The notes below the pieces were generated by a model. The model was given only the letters and a program-made list of their open reading frames with translations. It was not told the DNA's origin and ran no database searches. From NCBI GenBank assembly GCA_014323935.1, contig JACOND010000019.1:1-35687 (forward strand): a DNA stretch of 35,687 nucleotides. Reading direction: 5' to 3'. Below are positions 10,194 to 34,799 of the stretch, in pieces. A program made the position numbers and the translations under genes. Each line of letters opens with the position of its first letter. The first letter of the stretch is position 1. The stretch comes from Bdellovibrionales bacterium. GTDB lineage: Bacteria; Bdellovibrionota; Bdellovibrionia; Bdellovibrionales; UBA1609.

Positions 10194-10674
10194 TTACAGC
10201 TCCTCAGCAGGTGTAACTGTGAAAAGAGATACTTCATCTTTTGAATGAGAAAGTTGAATGTTATTTACACCCTTTTTTAAGGGAAAGTAAACAGCTATTA
10301 AATACTGATTTTCTTCTAAACAAGACAGTGCATAATCCTTTCCAGGAATAGCTTTTCTGTTTAATATAATCTCCGTCTTTTTCAACATTGACTTTTACAA
10401 AAGCTTTATTTGTTCCGGTATAACCATATTTATCCAGCTCCTCTTTTGACCAAACTACAGGAACTAAGGGTTCTGAGGAATTTAAAGACAGGGATAAAAC
10501 TTGATTAATATTATAAACCGAATTTTGATCTGCAACAATAGGGCTTTCTTTAGTAGGGTGTTCTCTCCAATCGCAATTTAACTGCTTATAATCACTTTCA
10601 TTAGAATCACTTTCTTTAGATTTATTACAACTTAAAATATTAAAAGCGATGAATAAAAAAACAAGCTGTTTCAT
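10194..10674 (-). pseudogene. Lipoprotein paralogue, copy 1 (frameshifted by internal deletion)
   Basis: The start is MKQLVFLF at 10674 (good GAGGGGAG ribosome site upstream), with a lipobox FNILSC and an NKSKESDSNESD linker. The mature part matches copies 2 and 3 up to EKDGDYI. There about 50 bp present in the other copies (coding WITAKAFITPFQFANE in copy 2) are missing. This puts the rest out of frame; the original ending (CLEENQYLIAVYFPLKKG...VTPAEEL) resumes in another frame and stops at about 10198. The gene is broken. Confidence 0.85.
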
Positions 10675-10704
10675 AAATACTCCCCTCTTTGTAATTGAAT
10701 TCAA

Positions 10705-10733
10705 CTTATTATTTAAAAAAATGAGCTTGTCAA
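10705..10733 (-). promoter_or_regulatory. Promoter of lipoprotein copy 1
   Basis: On the minus strand TTGACA (10733-10728) is followed after 17 bases by AATAAG (10710-10705). The -35 is identical and equally placed in front of all three lipoprotein copies. Confidence 0.6.
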
Positions 10734-10772
10734 ATAAAAAATCAAAATTATTTAAAAAATTAAGAGCTGATA

Positions 10773-10894
10773 TTTTTCAAACTTTTTCTTGGTTCCTTTT
10801 AATTTCACAAATTATTTATTTTAGAAAACAAAATTTTTCAAACTTTTTCTTGGTTCCTTTTAATTTCACAAATTATTTATTTTAGAAAACAAAA
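10773..10894. repeat. 61-bp direct repeat, two perfect tandem copies
   Basis: Copy one is 10773-10833 and copy two is 10834-10894. Each reads TTTTTCAAAC...TTCCTTTTAATTTC...TTTTAGAAAACAAAA. It is an internal duplication inside the LspA-like remnant of unit B; the corresponding parent segment (from about 9598) is single. The near-perfect match suggests a recent slip or recombination. Confidence 0.9.
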
Positions 10895-10961
10895 TTTGGA
10901 GATAATAGAAGAAAGAATTTAATCACTGTAAGATAAAAAACTTATTAAGTAAGTATTTTTT

Positions 10962-11480
10962 TTACAGCTCCTCAGCAGGTGTAACTGTGAAAAGAGATAC
11001 TTCATCTTTTGAATGAGAAAGTTGAATATTGTTTACACCCTTTTTTAAAGGAAAGTAAACAGCTCTTAAATACTGACTTTCTTCTAAACAAGACTGTGGT
11101 GTGTAATTTTTTGCAGGAATAGGTTTTTCGTTTGCAAATTGAAAGGGAGTTATAAAAGCTTTAGCAGTAATCCAAATAATATAATCTCCTTCTTTTTCAA
11201 TATTAACTTTTACAAAACCTTTATTGGTCCCGGTGTAACCAGATTCATCCAGCTCTTCTTTTGACCAAGCTACAGGAACGAGAGCTTCTGAAGAATTTAA
11301 AGACAGGGATAAAACTTGATTAATATTATAAACCGAATTTTGATCTATATTAATAGGGCTTTCTTTACTTGGGTGTTCTCTCCAATCGCAATTTAACTCC
11401 TCATAATCACTTGCCTTAGATTTATTAAAACTTAAAATATTAAAAACGATAAATAAAAAAATAAGAATGAGCTGTTTCAT
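10962..11480 (-). CDS. Exported protein, lipoprotein paralogue copy 2 (lipobox Cys lost)
   Basis: I place the start at the ATG at 11480 (MKQLILIF), preceded by GAGGGTG; the reading frame is also open a little further up to a GTG. About 172 residues. The signal peptide is intact, but the lipobox reads NILSF instead of NILSC, so the protein should not be lipidated. The mature part is full length: LNCDWREHPSKESPI, NSVYNINQVLSLSLNSSE, TGTNKGFVKVNIEKEGDYI and an ending in VTPAEEL. Function is unknown; it may be a small beta-rich periplasmic domain. Confidence 0.7.
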   Translation of the reverse strand: MKQLILIFLFIVFNILSFNKSKASDYEELNCDWREHPSKESPINIDQNSVYNINQVLSLSLNSSEALVPVAWSKEELDESGYTGTNKGFVKVNIEKEGDYIIWITAKAFITPFQFANEKPIPAKNYTPQSCLEESQYLRAVYFPLKKGVNNIQLSHSKDEVSLFTVTPAEEL

Positions 11481-11511
11481 AAACACCCTCTAAATTTTTA
11501 ATTGAATTTAG

Positions 11512-11539
11512 CTTATATTAAAAAAATTTAGCTTGTCAA
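11512..11539 (-). promoter_or_regulatory. Promoter of lipoprotein copy 2
   Basis: TTGACA (11539-11534) and TATAAG (11517-11512) on the minus strand with a 16-base spacer. This is the same promoter as copies 1 and 3. Confidence 0.6.
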
Positions 11540-11569
11540 ATAAAACATCAAAATTATTAAAAAATTAAG

Positions 11570-11868
11570 AGCTGATATTTTTCAAACTTTTGTTTGGTTC
11601 CTTTTAATTTCACAAATTATTTATTTTAGAAAACAAATTTGGAGAGAATAGAAGATAAGAATTTATTGGTTTTTAAAAAAAACTTCAATATCAATTTTTA
11701 GCTTATTGCTCTCTCATTTTCATATTGTTATACGCTTTTAAAAGATATTGTAAGAAATACTTGAAGGGAAAAAGAATTTCATTTAAGAAAAGGGAATCAA
11801 TTTAATCCTTTAGAAAAATTAACTAAAGATATAAAAAAGAAACTCCCAATTCATCTTAAAAACGTTTA
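11570..11868 (+). pseudogene. 3' remnant of the LspA-like/HAMP gene
   Basis: Matches the parent from the FNLADM codons (9591) to past its stop codon (CAGTTCATCTTAG at 10060-10072, here CAATTCATCTTAA). It has an internal deletion joining the counterpart of about 9747 to that of about 9935, which removes the third and fourth membrane spans, plus frameshifts. No start codon region is present. It fills most of the gap between lipoprotein copies 2 and 3. Confidence 0.8.
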
Positions 11869-12017
11869 GCTTTAGGATTTTTTTATGTGTTTTTCTATTT
11901 TTTTTTCCAAACAGCTATAAAAACATCTCTAAAATAATATAACATAAAAAATTTTCTTATAGCGTTATTCATGAAATATAACTTAAGATAAAAAACTTAT
12001 TTAAGTAAGTGTTTTTT

Positions 12018-12530
12018 TTACAGCTCCTCAGCAGGTGTAACTGTTAAAAGAGATACTTCATCTTTTGAATGAGAAAGTTGAATCATATTTAACCCCTTTT
12101 TTAAGGTAAAGGAAACAGCTTTTAAATACTGATTTTCTTCTAAACAAAACTGTTTTGTGTAATTTTTTGAAGGAATAGGTTTTTCGTTTGCAAATTGAAA
12201 GGGAGTTATAAAAGCTTGAGAAGTAAGCCAAATAATATAATCTCCGTCTTTTTCAATATTAATTTTTACAAAACCTTTATTGGTCCCGGTGTAACCAGAT
12301 TCATCCAGCTCTTCTTTTGACCAAGCTACAGGAGCGAGAGCTTCTGAAGAATTTAAAGACAGGGATAAAACTTCATTAATATTATAAACCGAATTTTGAT
12401 CTATATTAATAGGGTTTTCTTTACTAGGGTGTTCTCTCCAATCGCAATTTAACTCCTTATCATCACTTACCTTAGATTTGTTACAACTTAAAATATTAAA
12501 AGCGATAAATAAAAAAACAAGCTGTTTCAT
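12018..12530 (-). CDS. Putative lipoprotein, copy 3 (the intact copy)
   Basis: I start the gene at MKQLVFLF (ATG at 12530) because GGAGG lies 5 bases upstream; a further in-frame ATG at 12542 would make the ribosome site part of the gene. 170 residues. Signal peptide MKQLVFLFIAFNILSC with lipobox LSC; the mature protein begins CNKSKVSDDKELNCDWREHP. The mature part (NSVYNINEVLSLSLNSSEALAPVAWSKEELDESGYTG...PAEEL) has alternating hydrophobic residues suggestive of a beta-sandwich. I do not recognise the family. It is the only copy with both lipobox and frame intact. Confidence 0.8.
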   Translation of the reverse strand: MKQLVFLFIAFNILSCNKSKVSDDKELNCDWREHPSKENPINIDQNSVYNINEVLSLSLNSSEALAPVAWSKEELDESGYTGTNKGFVKINIEKDGDYIIWLTSQAFITPFQFANEKPIPSKNYTKQFCLEENQYLKAVSFTLKKGLNMIQLSHSKDEVSLLTVTPAEEL

Positions 12531-12554
12531 AAATACCTCCATTTTGCAATTTAG

Positions 12555-26006: not shown

Positions 26007-26846
26007 GTGAATTTTAAGAAAATTAATTTGAACAAAGAAGAACACAATTTTCATATTCTCTCTATTGATGGGGGTGGAATTAGAAGTATTGTTCCTGCCT
26101 TCATTATTAATTCAATTTTTAGCAAACTTGGAATTGACTTTGGTGAAAAAATCCAAATGCTTGCAGGAACAAGCACTGGCTCAATTATCGTGGCTGGTTT
26201 GGCTTGTGAAATTTCCACAAAAAAAATAATAAAACTCTATAGCAAGGTCTGTGACAAAATTTTAAAAGAAATATTTGAAGAAAGAAAACTTGGTGACATA
26301 GAAAACCCCTTGTTGATTCTATCAATTGATATTGGAAATGGCAATGTCCATATTTTTAAATCAAATGATTCCAAACACTTCACTAGGGATGTCCTTGTTC
26401 GTGATGCTGTCTTAGCTTCATGTAGTACTCCAACTTATTTTAACTCTATTATTGAGTATGCTCTGGGAGGGCTTTGGGCTAATAATCCATCTTTAGTTGC
26501 TTTTATTGAGGCTCAAAAAAGACTGAATGTATCTGCCGACAGTATTAAAATTCTCTCTATAAGTATAGGTCATGTAAAATCATTCTATGGAACTGACTTA
26601 GAAAAAAAGTGGGGATTCTTTTGGGAAAGAGAAAAATTTATAAATTTTATTCTTTCTCTTAAATCTCAATCAATCCACAATTATCTAAAACTCATTATAA
26701 AAGAAGATAACTTGTTGAGATTGAATTTTGAATCTGATCTTCCCTTGCCCTTAGATGAATGTACTTCAAAGCAAGACCTTCTTTTGAAGGCAGATAAACT
26801 TTTTACTTACGAAGGAAAGAATATTCAATTCTTTTTTAATTGCTAG
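26007..26846 (+). CDS. Patatin-like phospholipase (CapV-like CBASS effector), catalytic Asp missing
   Basis: 279 residues with a GTG start; a stop codon lies just upstream in frame and no nearby ATG fits. N-terminal LSIDGGGIRSIVPAFI (18-33) gives the oxyanion-hole glycine motif and GTSTGS (54-59) the Ser56 nucleophile elbow. NGNVHIFKS, ASCSTPTYF and GGLWANNPSLVAFIEAQ (154-170) complete the CapV-type patatin pattern. The block that should read DGG carries ALGG (152-155), so the dyad aspartate is replaced by leucine. Known CapV proteins degrade membrane phospholipids when activated by cyclic nucleotides from the partner CD-NTase, which is encoded 18 bp downstream. This copy is probably inactive or altered. 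Confidence 0.88.
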   Translation: MNFKKINLNKEEHNFHILSIDGGGIRSIVPAFIINSIFSKLGIDFGEKIQMLAGTSTGSIIVAGLACEISTKKIIKLYSKVCDKILKEIFEERKLGDIENPLLILSIDIGNGNVHIFKSNDSKHFTRDVLVRDAVLASCSTPTYFNSIIEYALGGLWANNPSLVAFIEAQKRLNVSADSIKILSISIGHVKSFYGTDLEKKWGFFWEREKFINFILSLKSQSIHNYLKLIIKEDNLLRLNFESDLPLPLDECTSKQDLLLKADKLFTYEGKNIQFFFNC

Positions 26847-26864
26847 TTTAAAGGAGGACATTTT

Positions 26865-27983
26865 ATGATCTATGACAAAAAAAATAATCTCATTATAGAA
26901 CAGATGAGTGAGGAGATTTCTATACCAGGGAGGGCTTATAAAAAAGCTATTAAACACTATGAAGATTTGAGAAACTGGCTCAATCGAAATGAATCATCTT
27001 TAAAAAAATATAAACCTCAAATCTTTGTCCAAGGATCATTTCAACTGGGTACAGCCATAAAACCTTTAAAAAGAAAAAATCAATATGATCTCGATCTCGT
27101 TTGCAAATTAAAGGATAAAATTTCAAAAACAACACACTCTCAAGCTGATCTTAAAGAAATGATAAGAAAAGAACTGAATCTCTATAAAATAAACAGAGGA
27201 ATTGAGAAGAATCTTCAAGAAAAACCCCGATGCTGGAGATTGGAGTATCAAGATGATTTAAATTTCCGTATGGATATTCTTCCTTGTATTCCAGAAAGCG
27301 ATAAAATAAAAAAAGATATACTTCTTTCAATAATAAACTCTGGTGTAAAGGAAGATCTAGCAAGAAGTTCTTCTAATTCGACGGTATCAATTACTTGTGA
27401 GCTAAATTGTAATTATAGATTAATTTCAGATGATTGGAATATTAGCAATCCTGAAGGTTACGTTAAATGGTTTAAAAAAAGGATGAATAGTATAGAAAAA
27501 CAAGTTGATAGCATTCCTTTATTTATAAATAAAACACCTCTACAAAGAGTCATTCAACTCCTAAAAAGACATAGAGATAATATGTTTGCAAATAAAAGAA
27601 AATTAAAACCCATTTCCATAATTTTGACAACTCTTGCTACAAAAGCATATTCTGGGGAACAAGATATTTATTCTGCCTTAAAAAATATTCTTAAGGAGAT
27701 GTGGAATTTTGCTAACCAAGGGACTTCCATATTACCTAACCCTGTCAATCCAAGAGAGAATTTTGCAGATAAGTGGTCTATGCCAGAATATAAAAAATTT
27801 AATCTTAAAAAGAATTTTTGCCTTTGGCTTGAGCAATTACAAAACGATCTTTCTATCATTGAAAATTCAACCCTTTCAGATTTTATTTCAGAACAAGCTT
27901 CTAAAAAATTTGGAATAAACCTTGATGAAAAAATATTGGAAAAAGAATCTAGCTTATCAAATTCACCTTCTTTAAATCTATAG
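26865..27983 (+). CDS. CD-NTase (CBASS cyclic-oligonucleotide synthase)
   Basis: 372 residues. The nucleotidyltransferase core has QGSFQLGT (56-63) for nucleotide binding, YDLDLVC (74-80) with metal ligands D75 and D77, and RMDILPCIPE (135-144) with the third acid D137. The helical C-terminal part has KPISIILTTLA and NPVNPRENFADKW (291-304), both typical of bacterial cGAS/DncV-like enzymes. All catalytic acids look intact. A strong AAAGGAGG ribosome site lies within the 18-bp gap after the patatin gene, so the two form an operon. No Cap2/Cap3 or HORMA/TRIP13 genes follow, which makes this a type I (two-gene) CBASS. I cannot name the clade or the nucleotide product. Confidence 0.9.
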   Translation: MIYDKKNNLIIEQMSEEISIPGRAYKKAIKHYEDLRNWLNRNESSLKKYKPQIFVQGSFQLGTAIKPLKRKNQYDLDLVCKLKDKISKTTHSQADLKEMIRKELNLYKINRGIEKNLQEKPRCWRLEYQDDLNFRMDILPCIPESDKIKKDILLSIINSGVKEDLARSSSNSTVSITCELNCNYRLISDDWNISNPEGYVKWFKKRMNSIEKQVDSIPLFINKTPLQRVIQLLKRHRDNMFANKRKLKPISIILTTLATKAYSGEQDIYSALKNILKEMWNFANQGTSILPNPVNPRENFADKWSMPEYKKFNLKKNFCLWLEQLQNDLSIIENSTLSDFISEQASKKFGINLDEKILEKESSLSNSPSLNL

Positions 27984-30221: not shown

Positions 30222-32984
30222 TTATTGTTGTTTCAAAATGTTCTCTATGATTTTATGGACGAGACCACCTGTAGAATCTTGAGAGATTTCAAAATGCCAT
30301 TTTTGTTGCAAATCTTCTGAAACAGCTTTACACCAGTTTCTCATAAAATCCCACTTATGAATATCCCTTTTCTTTTTGATACCTTTAACTTCAAGGATTA
30401 AATGATTCCCATTAGAAAGTTTTATAATAAAGTCAGGAATATAGTTTCTTATTTTTCCTTTTTCATTCATGTATTCAATCCTGAAACCTAAGTGATCATT
30501 TTTCACCCAAGACAACACTTCTTTATTTTTATCTAATTCTCTTGCATGAGTGTATTCCCAAGAGCTATCTACCACGCATTGATTCATGTGTGTTTTTTTG
30601 AAAAGGGCTGTCTTCTTTTTTGTCCACCATTCTTCAATCTCTCCTGTCGATGAAAATTTGAAATGTTCATTGTATACAACAGAGAACTCTTTAATAGAAT
30701 CTTTTTGAATCAAACTAAAAACTTTATTTACTATTTCATTCATCTTTATCATTACAATTAAATCTTTTCTTTCTTTTTCATAAGCTGGTTTTATTTTGAA
30801 TTTGGAGGAGTTTATAAATTTCTCTACTAATTGAAAAATCATCTTAATAGCATAAGGTTTTAAAATTCCTTTTTTCCACTCTGCTTGACTCTTATCATAA
30901 ATCTGAGAGCTTATTTTTAATATTAAGGTTTGCAACCTATCCGGTCTATATTCTTGTTCAAAAAACTCTTGAAGTTTTATTACTTCTATATTTTCATATC
31001 TAGGGCTTCCGTCAATAATAGGAGCTAACTCTTGCATTCTTGGAATACTGGCAACATCAATAGTAAATACAGACATAGCTTTAAAATCAATCTTTAATTT
31101 TGGCCTTAGCTGACAATCTATTCTTTCCACATTAGGCCAAGTTATTTCATACTCAGATTTTTCTTTTTCAGGAAAAATACAATATCTTGGGACTTCTTCT
31201 TTTTTCCCTCTATCACTTCCCTCTTGAGGTAAATAAGCAAAGGGAACTCCTAAAACATTGACATATTCTGATTCAAACATTCCTTCTTCATTGAGTTCAT
31301 AGGACATTCTTCTTAATCCCCTTCCTATGGTCTGCTCACAAAGTAGCTGACTGCTAAAAGCTCTCAAGCCTATAATATGGGTGACTGTCTTACAGTTCCA
31401 GCCTTCAGAGAGCATAGCGACAGAAATAATATGCTGTATATTTTGTCCACTTTTCCCTACTTTTCCTACATTTGAAAGCCTATCTCTTATCTCTTCATCT
31501 TCTTCCATTCCTGAATAAATTTTTAACATGTTTTCTGAAACTTTATTAAAAAATAATTGAGGGGCTGGAATATCCTTATTTTTAAAACTGAATTCTACCC
31601 GGTCCGCTGTTTCTTTTCTATTAACGACTGAAATTAAAACCGGAGGAAAAAATTCCTTTGAGTTCTTACAATTCTTTTTCCAATCCTCATATTTTTTCTT
31701 CCAACTCTGTGTCAGATGTGTATAAGCTATTTTTACAATATCCGGCAAAGACTCCGTTTCCTTTGCTGTTCTATTTAAATCCATTTTGACCTCTTCATTT
31801 TCATAAATATGGTAAAACTTAGGTTTTAAGTTTTTAACATCAGCTGAAGCGTCATCCCCTACCGCAAATTTTGGAGTCTTAACAAGTCCTGACTCAATCG
31901 CATCCGTTAAACCAAAATCACTGACAATCCATTCAAACAAGTTTCTTTCATCTGCAGTTTTCCCTGTCGGAGCATAAGGAGTGGCAGAAAAGTCAAACAC
32001 ATGATTGATTCCAATTTTTCTATTGATTCGATCCAAGCCTTCAATCCATTTTGTTGCTTTTTCTATATCTGCTTTCGTTAAATCATCTGTTCTTTTTATT
32101 TTTAATTCATTTCGGTAACGCCAAGCATGATGAGCTTCATCATTTAAAACAACAATATTTTTTGATACAGCTAAACCTTCTAAAACCTCTTTTACATAAG
32201 CGTAATCACTTTTCACTCCTCTTTTATCTACACCTTTTCTTTTCGCAATCTGCTCTTCTGTTTCCCACTGGAGTTGGTGCCAGTTTTTTATAAGAACAAA
32301 GCCCTGCCTGAATTTTTCAAGCCATTCCTTTGGAATAATTTTATATTCTTTGTAATAATTATTTCCCGGCAAGGTGAGAACTTTCAATCTCTCTCTAACA
32401 GTCAAATTAGGAGCGACAATAAAAATATTTTTTGAAAATCTTGTATCTTTAGGATAAATAACTTTATTAAGAACTTGCCAAGCAATAGTCATAGCCATAA
32501 CGACAGTCTTTCCTGTGCCGGTTGCCATTTTACAACACAGTCTGTTTAAGCTTTCATCTTTTGGAATCTTAAGCCCTTGTTTAAAACTGTCACTAGCTTC
32601 TACAAGAAAAATCAAGGTTTCAATAGCTTCTAACTGGCAAAAAAAGAAATCATATTGTCTCCCTGAATCTTCTGACTTCGTCTTCCAAAATTCAAGGAGT
32701 CTTCTAGTCACTCCTGTCACTCCCGAATAATGATCTGCTTTCCATTTTGCCATTCTGATTCGAATCTCATTAACAAGAGAAATCTCTTTAATTAAGCCAT
32801 ATTCATCATAGGACTTATTTTTAGAACTCGCTATAACATAGCTAGCTGACCTTCGACCTTGTTTCAAAACAAATTCTTTTTTAGTCTTATCAAACTTCCA
32901 ATGTTGATTGGGTTTTTTAAAAGGGGAATTGATAATAAGTTTTTTAATCGGTTTTGGCACTTTTTTAAAATTCTTTATGGACAT
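30222..32984 (-). CDS. Type III-like restriction protein: SF2 helicase plus PD-(D/E)XK nuclease (BPTD_3080/COG3587-like)
   Basis: 920 residues. Walker A ATGTGKT (154-160), DEAH box NDEAHHAW (281-288), motif III FSATPYAP (332-339), SEGWNCKTVTHIIGLRAFSS (526-545) and motif VI QTIGRGLRR (551-559) make a complete SF2 helicase. Near the end, PDF (850-852), a short loop and EVKG (865-868) form a PD-(D/E)XK nuclease site. This matches Res subunits of type III-like systems, which need a Mod methyltransferase partner; none is in view. Its ATG overlaps the PIN gene's stop by 10 bp, so translation is coupled. All motifs look functional. Confidence 0.9.
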   Translation of the reverse strand: MSIKNFKKVPKPIKKLIINSPFKKPNQHWKFDKTKKEFVLKQGRRSASYVIASSKNKSYDEYGLIKEISLVNEIRIRMAKWKADHYSGVTGVTRRLLEFWKTKSEDSGRQYDFFFCQLEAIETLIFLVEASDSFKQGLKIPKDESLNRLCCKMATGTGKTVVMAMTIAWQVLNKVIYPKDTRFSKNIFIVAPNLTVRERLKVLTLPGNNYYKEYKIIPKEWLEKFRQGFVLIKNWHQLQWETEEQIAKRKGVDKRGVKSDYAYVKEVLEGLAVSKNIVVLNDEAHHAWRYRNELKIKRTDDLTKADIEKATKWIEGLDRINRKIGINHVFDFSATPYAPTGKTADERNLFEWIVSDFGLTDAIESGLVKTPKFAVGDDASADVKNLKPKFYHIYENEEVKMDLNRTAKETESLPDIVKIAYTHLTQSWKKKYEDWKKNCKNSKEFFPPVLISVVNRKETADRVEFSFKNKDIPAPQLFFNKVSENMLKIYSGMEEDEEIRDRLSNVGKVGKSGQNIQHIISVAMLSEGWNCKTVTHIIGLRAFSSQLLCEQTIGRGLRRMSYELNEEGMFESEYVNVLGVPFAYLPQEGSDRGKKEEVPRYCIFPEKEKSEYEITWPNVERIDCQLRPKLKIDFKAMSVFTIDVASIPRMQELAPIIDGSPRYENIEVIKLQEFFEQEYRPDRLQTLILKISSQIYDKSQAEWKKGILKPYAIKMIFQLVEKFINSSKFKIKPAYEKERKDLIVMIKMNEIVNKVFSLIQKDSIKEFSVVYNEHFKFSSTGEIEEWWTKKKTALFKKTHMNQCVVDSSWEYTHARELDKNKEVLSWVKNDHLGFRIEYMNEKGKIRNYIPDFIIKLSNGNHLILEVKGIKKKRDIHKWDFMRNWCKAVSEDLQQKWHFEISQDSTGGLVHKIIENILKQQ

Positions 32985-33394
32985 AGGTCTTCAACAAGAA
33001 GATGTTTATGATTTTTTGTTTGATAAATTTTTCCATGAGGAATCATTGTTGTAAAATCCTTATGTAAATTCTTATCTTTAGAACACAGCACTTTTATATT
33101 TCCAGCTTTTGCTAAACCTAATATATGATCATCATTTGATTTCATAATGTATTGTGATTTTCTAATTTTTTTTATTTCTTCTTCGACTTCTTCTTTAAGT
33201 ACAAGTTTAGCTTTTCCAGCTTGTCTATAAGTTTCTAAACTATTTTTATATTTTTTGCTTAGTTCTTTAAACTTTTCATGATTAGAATAAATCAACTTTC
33301 CATTTTTCTTTTCTAACCAATCATGAATAGGGATTATATCATCTTTTTTCTCTAAAAAATCTCCCCATTGATTGTTGTCCAAAATCAAACACAT
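32975..33394 (-). CDS. Small PIN-domain nuclease-like protein
   Basis: 139 residues. The order of acids fits a PIN ribonuclease: D6 in LILDNNQW, E69-E73 in KEEVEEEIKK, D88/D89 in SNDDHILGLA and D107 in KVLCSKDKNLHKDF. The NDDHILxLA...VLCSKD pattern is the family's core. It sits 7 bp after the ATPase gene, with AAGGAT from the ATPase's last codons as a ribosome site, and overlaps the helicase-nuclease gene. PIN genes are usually toxins with a small antitoxin; none is seen, so the ATPase may control it. Family assignment is from motif order only. Confidence 0.7.
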   Translation of the reverse strand: MCLILDNNQWGDFLEKKDDIIPIHDWLEKKNGKLIYSNHEKFKELSKKYKNSLETYRQAGKAKLVLKEEVEEEIKKIRKSQYIMKSNDDHILGLAKAGNIKVLCSKDKNLHKDFTTMIPHGKIYQTKNHKHLLVEDLCP

Positions 33395-33401
33395 GTAAAG
33401 A

Positions 33402-34730
33402 CTAATCCTTAAACCCTAAATAGCGATCTGATTCTTCTAGAAAAAAATCTCTGTAACCTTTAGGTACTCCCTTTAAGTTGCCTTGCTTATCAAAAGATAT
33501 GTTATGAGCTTTCACACCCTTTTCTGTAGGTTCTAAATAAATTAAAGAGACATCATCAGGAGATATGTTCTTTTTTCGAATTTCAATACTAGCTCTATTA
33601 ATTATATGATCACTATGAGTTTCAATTAAAAAAGAATTATCTTGTTTTGTGCTTTCAACAAAAAGAGAAGTTAATTCTGCTTGAGCTTTAGGATGCAAAT
33701 GCACTTCTGGTTGTTGTAATAAAAATTGAAAGGGGCTACTTCCTAATCTAGAATTCTTTGGATAAAATAATCTTACTAAAAGAGGAAGTATTTGGCTGAC
33801 GCCATAACCAATATCCATAATATTGGATTGAAAACCTCTCACTTTAAATTGCAACTGAAAAGGTTCATTCACAGATCCATATTTTTTTACTTCAATATTT
33901 GAAAATAAACCAGAACTTTGTCCAAACTGAACAAGTTTGTCACGGATTGTTTTCCAATCTCCTGTCTTATTACTTAAATTCATAAGAGTCATAGGAATTT
34001 CACTCCCTTCTGAATCTGGATTTACTCTAATGGGATCATAAGTCCTTTTAGGTTTTGAACGAATGGGAGCTAAACTAATTGTATCAATCCATAATTCTCT
34101 TTCAAAGTGACGGATAATTTCAAGGTTTTCTAAAATAATTTCTTTTTTACTTTTTGATAAGTCTGAACTCTTCCTAGTAATAAAATCTAAAAAAGAAAAA
34201 GGACTTTTTATAAAGATATTAAAGATACCTTCATCATTAATGTCTTTTTTTCTATTGATTAACTTTATTAACTTTTTTCCTTCTTTTTTTATCATGAGAT
34301 CTTTCTGACTATTGATTGAATAAATAAAATCGTCCAAACTAATTTTTACCTTTTGAATAAATGGCCCAGACCGGTTCTTTTTGTTTGTAAAGTGAAATTT
34401 ATATTCTAGCTTTTGAACAACTGGCTCTTTTTTGTTTTTTTTTGTTTGACTTAATTCAAACTCACATCCGATCTCAAAAGTTTTAGAATTTCCTTTTAAT
34501 TTCTTGTTAGCAATATCTTGAAAGGACCCCATAAGATAAGGTTCTCTATTAAAGTCTGGAACATGACTAAAAATATGACTAATAGAATTCATAATGATAT
34601 TAAAACACCCCATGACAGTTGTCTTTCCTGTGCTATTTTCTCCTACAAGAAAAGTTAAAGGACGAATATTAAAGTGTTGCTCTTCAGCAAAACAACGAAC
34701 ACCTTTTATTTTTAATTTAATATTTTTCAT
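33402..34730 (-). CDS. AAA/ABC-type ATPase, DUF3696-like (AAA_21/OLD-type ATPase domain)
   Basis: 442 residues. It starts with IKGVRCFAEEQHFNIRPLTFLVGENSTGKTT, giving Walker A at 30-37. The middle has the signature-like GYGVSQILPLLVR (about 305). Walker B is LLQQPEVHLHP (337-347), followed by the switch ETHSDHIINR (371-380). The end (VKAHNISFDKQGNL...GYRDFF) is typical of DUF3696 proteins. Such ATPases act as sensors or sliding clamps that license a partner nuclease in defence systems. It is the first gene of the three-gene operon, with its own promoter and an AAGGA ribosome site. Confidence 0.88.
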   Translation of the reverse strand: MKNIKLKIKGVRCFAEEQHFNIRPLTFLVGENSTGKTTVMGCFNIIMNSISHIFSHVPDFNREPYLMGSFQDIANKKLKGNSKTFEIGCEFELSQTKKNKKEPVVQKLEYKFHFTNKKNRSGPFIQKVKISLDDFIYSINSQKDLMIKKEGKKLIKLINRKKDINDEGIFNIFIKSPFSFLDFITRKSSDLSKSKKEIILENLEIIRHFERELWIDTISLAPIRSKPKRTYDPIRVNPDSEGSEIPMTLMNLSNKTGDWKTIRDKLVQFGQSSGLFSNIEVKKYGSVNEPFQLQFKVRGFQSNIMDIGYGVSQILPLLVRLFYPKNSRLGSSPFQFLLQQPEVHLHPKAQAELTSLFVESTKQDNSFLIETHSDHIINRASIEIRKKNISPDDVSLIYLEPTEKGVKAHNISFDKQGNLKGVPKGYRDFFLEESDRYLGFKD

Positions 34731-34754: not shown

Positions 34755-34763
34755 ATTATAACA
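34755..34763 (-). promoter_or_regulatory. Extended -10 promoter of the ATPase-PIN-helicase operon
   Basis: The minus strand reads TGTTATAAT (34763-34755), a perfect TGnTATAAT extended -10 located 25 bases before the ATPase start codon. The -35 region is weak. AAGGA (34739-34735) follows as the ribosome site. The operon therefore appears to begin here, so a Mod gene further upstream in the same transcript is not required. Confidence 0.6.
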
Positions 34764-34799
34764 TGTAAAGTCAAACAGTGTTAGCTCAAAATTTCACAC

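Follow-up and report, generated by a model that had tools for sequence, protein, structure and literature searches.

A BPTD_3080-family restriction operon with an embedded ATPase-PIN module in a Bdellovibrionales bacterium, very probably divided between two contigs

The stretch of DNA analyzed here (the window, 35,687 nucleotides of contig C19 from a Bdellovibrionales genome) carries a locus of an ordinary kind: an OLD-ABC/PIN module embedded in an R-M operon, which is a recognised sort of layered phage defence. On balance, we favor a reading in which restriction acts first and an ATPase-gated RNase provides a second, abortive layer, in a four-gene operon Mod-ATPase-PIN-Res that was split by assembly. 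An earlier note on this DNA had described the operon as lacking a methyltransferase. This was wrong, because a matching Mod gene is present in the same genome on another contig (C45); its caveat that a Mod gene could simply be out of view was right.

Genes and predicted proteins of the operon

The three minus-strand genes (Table 1) are as tightly packed as the earlier note had described. Their coordinates, the 7-bp gap between the ATPase and PIN genes, and the 10-bp overlap between the PIN and Res genes were all confirmed exactly. The single extended -10 promoter proposed for them has no support above chance. The site before the ATPase gene has 10/12 matches with the TG and is the top-scoring of the sites upstream of the ATPase, but extended -10 sites occur at chance level in the region (29 sites against 25.1 ± 5.0 expected).

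Table 1. Features of the window.
Feature	Position	Strand	Evidence or remarks
OLD-type ABC ATPase (AAA_15/AAA_21), 442 aa, assigned by profile matches	33402..34730	-	Walker A GENSTGKT, QQPEVHLHP, ETHSD
Predicted PIN-type RNase, 139 aa	32975..33394	-	PF01850 1.8e-4, invariant residues, AF2 model
Type III-like restriction subunit (SF2 helicase + PD-(D/E)XK), BPTD_3080 family, 920 aa	30222..32984	-	NF046055
Extended -10 promoter-like site (weak)	34755..34784	-	25 bp before ATPase start
Foreign-looking non-coding contig tail	34850..35687 (start approximate)		Dinucleotide and GC outlier, single-copy
CBASS-like pair (patatin phospholipase effector, DncV-like CD-NTase)	26007-27983	+	Effector NF041079, 147 bits (below cut-off 200); CD-NTase PADLOC Cyclase 2e-109
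Small lipoprotein-like gene, three paralogues in tandem	10261-12542	-	Common N-terminal ILSCNKSK / NCDWREHP

The ATPase matches AAA_15 (8e-19) and AAA_21, both above cut-off, and its closest solved structure is the OLD-family protein 6p74 (profile match, 2e-13). By these profiles it is an OLD-type ABC ATPase. Its earlier description as a DUF3696-like AAA ATPase stands as far as the AAA ATPase is concerned; DUF3696 was rejected as a family name because its match is sub-threshold (15.8 bits, cut-off 22).

Pfam PIN (PF01850) scores just below cut-off on the 139-aa protein (22.6 against 23.6), and residues D6, N8, D88, H90, and D107 are invariant across five homologues. An AF2 model built from five locus-derived homologues has a pLDDT of 86.5. 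In Foldseek, its five best PDB matches are VapC/PIN-type chains (E ~2e-3, TM ~0.5), which supports the PIN identity at the level of fold only. When the PIN family was compared with solved structures by sequence, no significant match emerged; support for the fold therefore comes from the structure model together with the weak Pfam match. The Pfam match, invariant residues, and model bear out the PIN-type RNase read earlier, its activity being predicted.

The Res protein matches NCBIfam NF046055 (BPTD_3080 family restriction endonuclease) at 909.9 bits, above the cut-off of 800. D851, E865, and K867 are conserved, and the helicase and PD-(D/E)XK residues are kept across eight relatives, in agreement with the full SF2 helicase with a PD-(D/E)XK site recognized earlier. 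The literature searched yielded no mention of BPTD_3080. The CBASS-like pair lies ~2.2 kb from the end of Res and together with the Res operon forms a small defence island.

The contig break and the Mod gene

Foreign-looking DNA begins ~120 bp upstream of the ATPase and runs to the contig end (~840 bp). It has a TpG/CpA o/e of 1.42 (0.88 ± 0.11 elsewhere), a CpG o/e of 0.17, and a GC of 0.38 (vs. 0.29); it contains no long ORF, and no second copy was found in the genome. All of this supports the join to foreign sequence that had been suspected just upstream of the operon. Because the tail is foreign in composition and single-copy, the true upstream sequence of the operon is missing, and the tail is likely a chimeric join standing where the Mod gene is expected. 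Its dinucleotide signature is animal-like (CpG-poor, TpG-rich), and it probably derives from the host or a contaminant and was attached during assembly.

Contig C19 contains no Mod gene. The Mod of a related plasmid, used as a query against the same genome, gave one strong match (G000:C45:1592-3730, E 9e-245). The gene (G000:C45:1580-3730) carries a DPPYG methylase motif and is cut off by the end of its 3732-base contig. In a genome of the same family (G016:C14), the gene order is intact: 80-aa ORF - Mod - Bro-N gene - Res. Identity to that locus is 74% for Mod and 83% for Res, and the small ORF directly upstream of Mod is 74% identical between the two genomes (L035:1273-1515, L036:4385-4627). 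From this synteny, C45 and C19 are very probably two parts of one locus; no overlap joins them, and both contigs break at Mod. The 80-aa ORF has no assigned family and is a possible regulator. A second Res-like gene in the genome, partly broken and of another subfamily (L041 = G000:C26:593-3097, ~116 bits), was rejected as the owner of the C45 Mod because this Mod is of the BPTD_3080-linked type.

The Res alignment was used to scan 84,980 genomes, and the best 80 loci from other genomes, a sample biased toward close relatives of the window Res, were compared. Mod was seen in 67 of these (63 upstream, 4 downstream), 10 are cut within ~2.6 kb upstream of Res and are too short to tell, and three show no Mod. 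One of these three, the chromosomal locus L106, shows 8.9 kb on each side of Res without a Mod and is a possible true Mod-free case.

The ATPase-PIN pair in other contexts and its closest precedents

Homologues of the ATPase-PIN pair were sought in 389 relatives. Both window genes have homologues side by side in G001 (51% identity for the ATPase and 45% for the PIN) and in G076 (33 and 32%), with no R-M genes nearby in either, and G070 has another ATPase-PIN pair. G118, G231, and G301 carry more distant ATPases, and there the next gene encodes a protein of another kind. In viral contigs, including L148 and L149, a PIN-like gene follows 10 of the 14 distinct evaluable ATPases (one, L155/L156, by motif only). 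On the phage contig L149 (3443-8365), the pair is a cargo module flanked by portal-like and terminase-like genes.

On a plasmid of Planktothrix NIES-204, Mod, ATPase, PIN, and Res follow one another in that order, separated by 11-41 bp. The ATPase encoded there shares 23% identity with that of the window, and the PIN is of a different subtype without detectable similarity. Two related loci (L109 and L114) have the order Mod-x-Res-ATPase-PIN. The pair occurs together with a BPTD_3080 Res in only about three independent cases. A Planktothrix-type pair in G016:C44 (L145:2952-7727) is directly beside an apparent ubiquitin-like conjugation operon, whose genes (multi-Ubl, E2-like, E1/JAB-like, DUF6527-like) were named by reading.

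End-to-end alignment was obtained for the ATPases of two subtypes (hhalign 2e-42), and the PINs are far more diverse in such comparisons; therefore, one sensor family seems to go with several PIN lineages. The earlier note had treated ATPase and PIN as a unit and had named a PIN gene occurring only as an unrelated drop-in as a finding that would speak against it. The pair instead recurs in several unrelated contexts (G001, G076, and the viral contigs among them), and across these gene neighborhoods it forms a separate, toxin-like two-gene module.

The closest named precedents are the PADLOC candidate HEC-03 and the OLD-ABC + PIN dyads of BREX. HECs were described alongside candidates found by "guilt-by-embedding" (PMC12988326). 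Judged by the PADLOC matches obtained here, HEC-03 (Hma-embedded candidate 3) appears to be an ATPase + PIN pair, and the PINs of L114 and L151 match HEC-03A. Like the window pair, it combines an ATPase (HEC-03B) and a PIN-like protein (HEC-03A) embedded in a defence operon. The window ATPase matches HEC-03B (89.6 bits), but it matches NsnB (147 bits) and PDC-M55A (127 bits) better. The window PIN has no HEC-03A match, and the host operon is BPTD_3080 Mod/Res rather than Hma (helicase, m5C methylase, ATPase). A direct link between the window PIN and the HEC-03A PINs was rejected, as hhalign was not significant and only an N-terminal motif is shared; the PINs of L158-L162 did align (1e-5). The window PIN had no meaningful match among PADLOC system models, and because its subtype is missed by the models searched, such pairs are probably under-counted. 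No relatives of the subtype A PIN were found by tblastn in plasmid and phage records.

A 2026 survey of BREX reports pairs of an OLD-ABC ATPase with PIN or another nuclease, which are proposed to be backup suicidal effectors (PMC12839542). As in the window, the PIN dyads place an OLD-type ATPase beside a PIN endoRNase within an operon for DNA-modification defence, and the window pair likewise has an ATPase gene followed directly by a PIN gene in a recurring arrangement. It is embedded in a BPTD_3080 Mod-Res operon, and the likeness holds at the level of OLD-ABC + PIN. On its sequence, the window pair is a divergent member of the OLD-ABC/PIN kind.

In PARIS, AriA activates AriB on sensing the anti-restriction protein Ocr (PMC12839542). 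PARIS shares with the window an OLD-type ATPase sensor and a separate RNase effector, and it is proposed to answer anti-restriction proteins; the effector in the window is PIN, not Toprim. Membership in PARIS was rejected for this reason and for the lack of an AriB match, and membership in Septu because PIN is present instead of the HNH nuclease PtuB. The comparison with these two systems drawn earlier is apt as mechanism but not as membership. Menshen (NsnA-C) includes a DUF262 protein and OLD nuclease partners (PMC10952713); it was also rejected, as the window has only an NsnB-like ATPase, NsnB being the best PADLOC match of this protein. PrrC is a precedent for an R-M-embedded suicide RNase (PMC3710099). 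It is a second-line RNase encoded inside an R-M operon (the type Ic locus PrrI), but it is one protein, an ABC ATPase fused to HEPN, and belongs to a type I system. Compared with other BPTD_3080 type III-like R-M systems, the window has the Res of NF046055 and the usual partner Mod in the genome, but Mod and Res are on separate contigs and an ATPase-PIN module is inserted.

Proposed function and the Mod-Res interval

The window genes would be the downstream part of an operon Mod - ATPase - PIN - Res. Mod and Res would form a type III-like ATP-dependent R-M system (BPTD_3080 family) as the first line, with Mod protecting host DNA. The OLD-type ABC ATPase would keep the PIN RNase silent and release it on sensing infection, the probable trigger being a phage that blocks or overwhelms restriction. 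The freed PIN RNase would cleave tRNA or other RNA, and the infection would be aborted. We infer this coupling to restriction; it is not a requirement, since the pair also occurs where R-M genes are absent. The conserved pair fits the ATPase-gated toxic nuclease of the abortive module suggested earlier, whereas the suggestion that it replaces the Mod control of the restriction protein is refuted.

The main rival to this restriction-first reading is the independence of both modules, with ATPase-PIN as a mobile defence or toxin module, complete in itself, that happens to occupy a slot tolerant of insertions. We regard this as possible but doubtful. Pairs stand alone in G001, G076, and phage contigs, and slot cargo is very different in close relatives, such as the Bro-N gene in G016:C14. 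However, the close packing in the window and the same gene order in the cyanobacterial plasmid, with a different PIN subtype, suggest selection for co-expression. It is improbable that the four proteins form one machine, in which the ATPase serves the restriction complex as an accessory subunit (for translocation or the choice of target) and the substrate of PIN is nucleic acid that restriction has released; (Mod)-ATPase-PIN-Res order is found in two distant loci, but most BPTD_3080 loci are without ATPase or PIN, and ATPase-PIN exists without Res. The Mod-free three-gene system of the earlier note agrees with the absence of Mod from the contig, but it is highly improbable given the cognate Mod on C45, the Mod directly before ATPase-PIN-Res in NIES-204, and the census, in which Mod regularly adjoins Res, the very finding the note had said would refute it.

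In all loci examined, the Mod-Res gap is <150 bp in 39/72 and at least 400 bp in 31/72, and the interval often holds toxin- or Abi-like modules. Fillers include a VapC-like PIN (L050), an M78 protease with a DUF4411 PIN (L052, L072), an OLD-type ATPase with a DUF4276-like protein (L076, L083; L076 is PADLOC HEC-01), MNT-HepT (L060, L101), a TIR effector (L100), SIR2 on the opposite strand (L062), a TrlF-like protein (L054), DUF3800 (L005, L045, L102, L118), and Bro-N/DinD-like genes (L036, L113). Family scans covered those of L036, L052, L062, L076, L100, L101, and L102; the remaining names come from sequence reading or, for L005, from the annotation of the record. Tentatively, the interval may be a slot reserved for exchangeable cassettes, namely suicide modules (candidates are ATPase-PIN, ATPase-Toprim, HEPN-MNT, TIR, DUF4411 PIN, and SIR2) that are kept as fail-safes and fire once restriction is blocked. 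Where the cassette is ATPase-PIN, a single ATPase family might drive several unrelated-looking PIN subtypes.

These results remove a false lead, in that the locus reflects a contig break and not a methyltransferase-free restriction system. They also provide a clear case in which an R-M operon encloses a suicide-type ATPase-PIN module, and they show that, in one widespread R-M family, the Mod-Res gap rewards a search for backup effectors.
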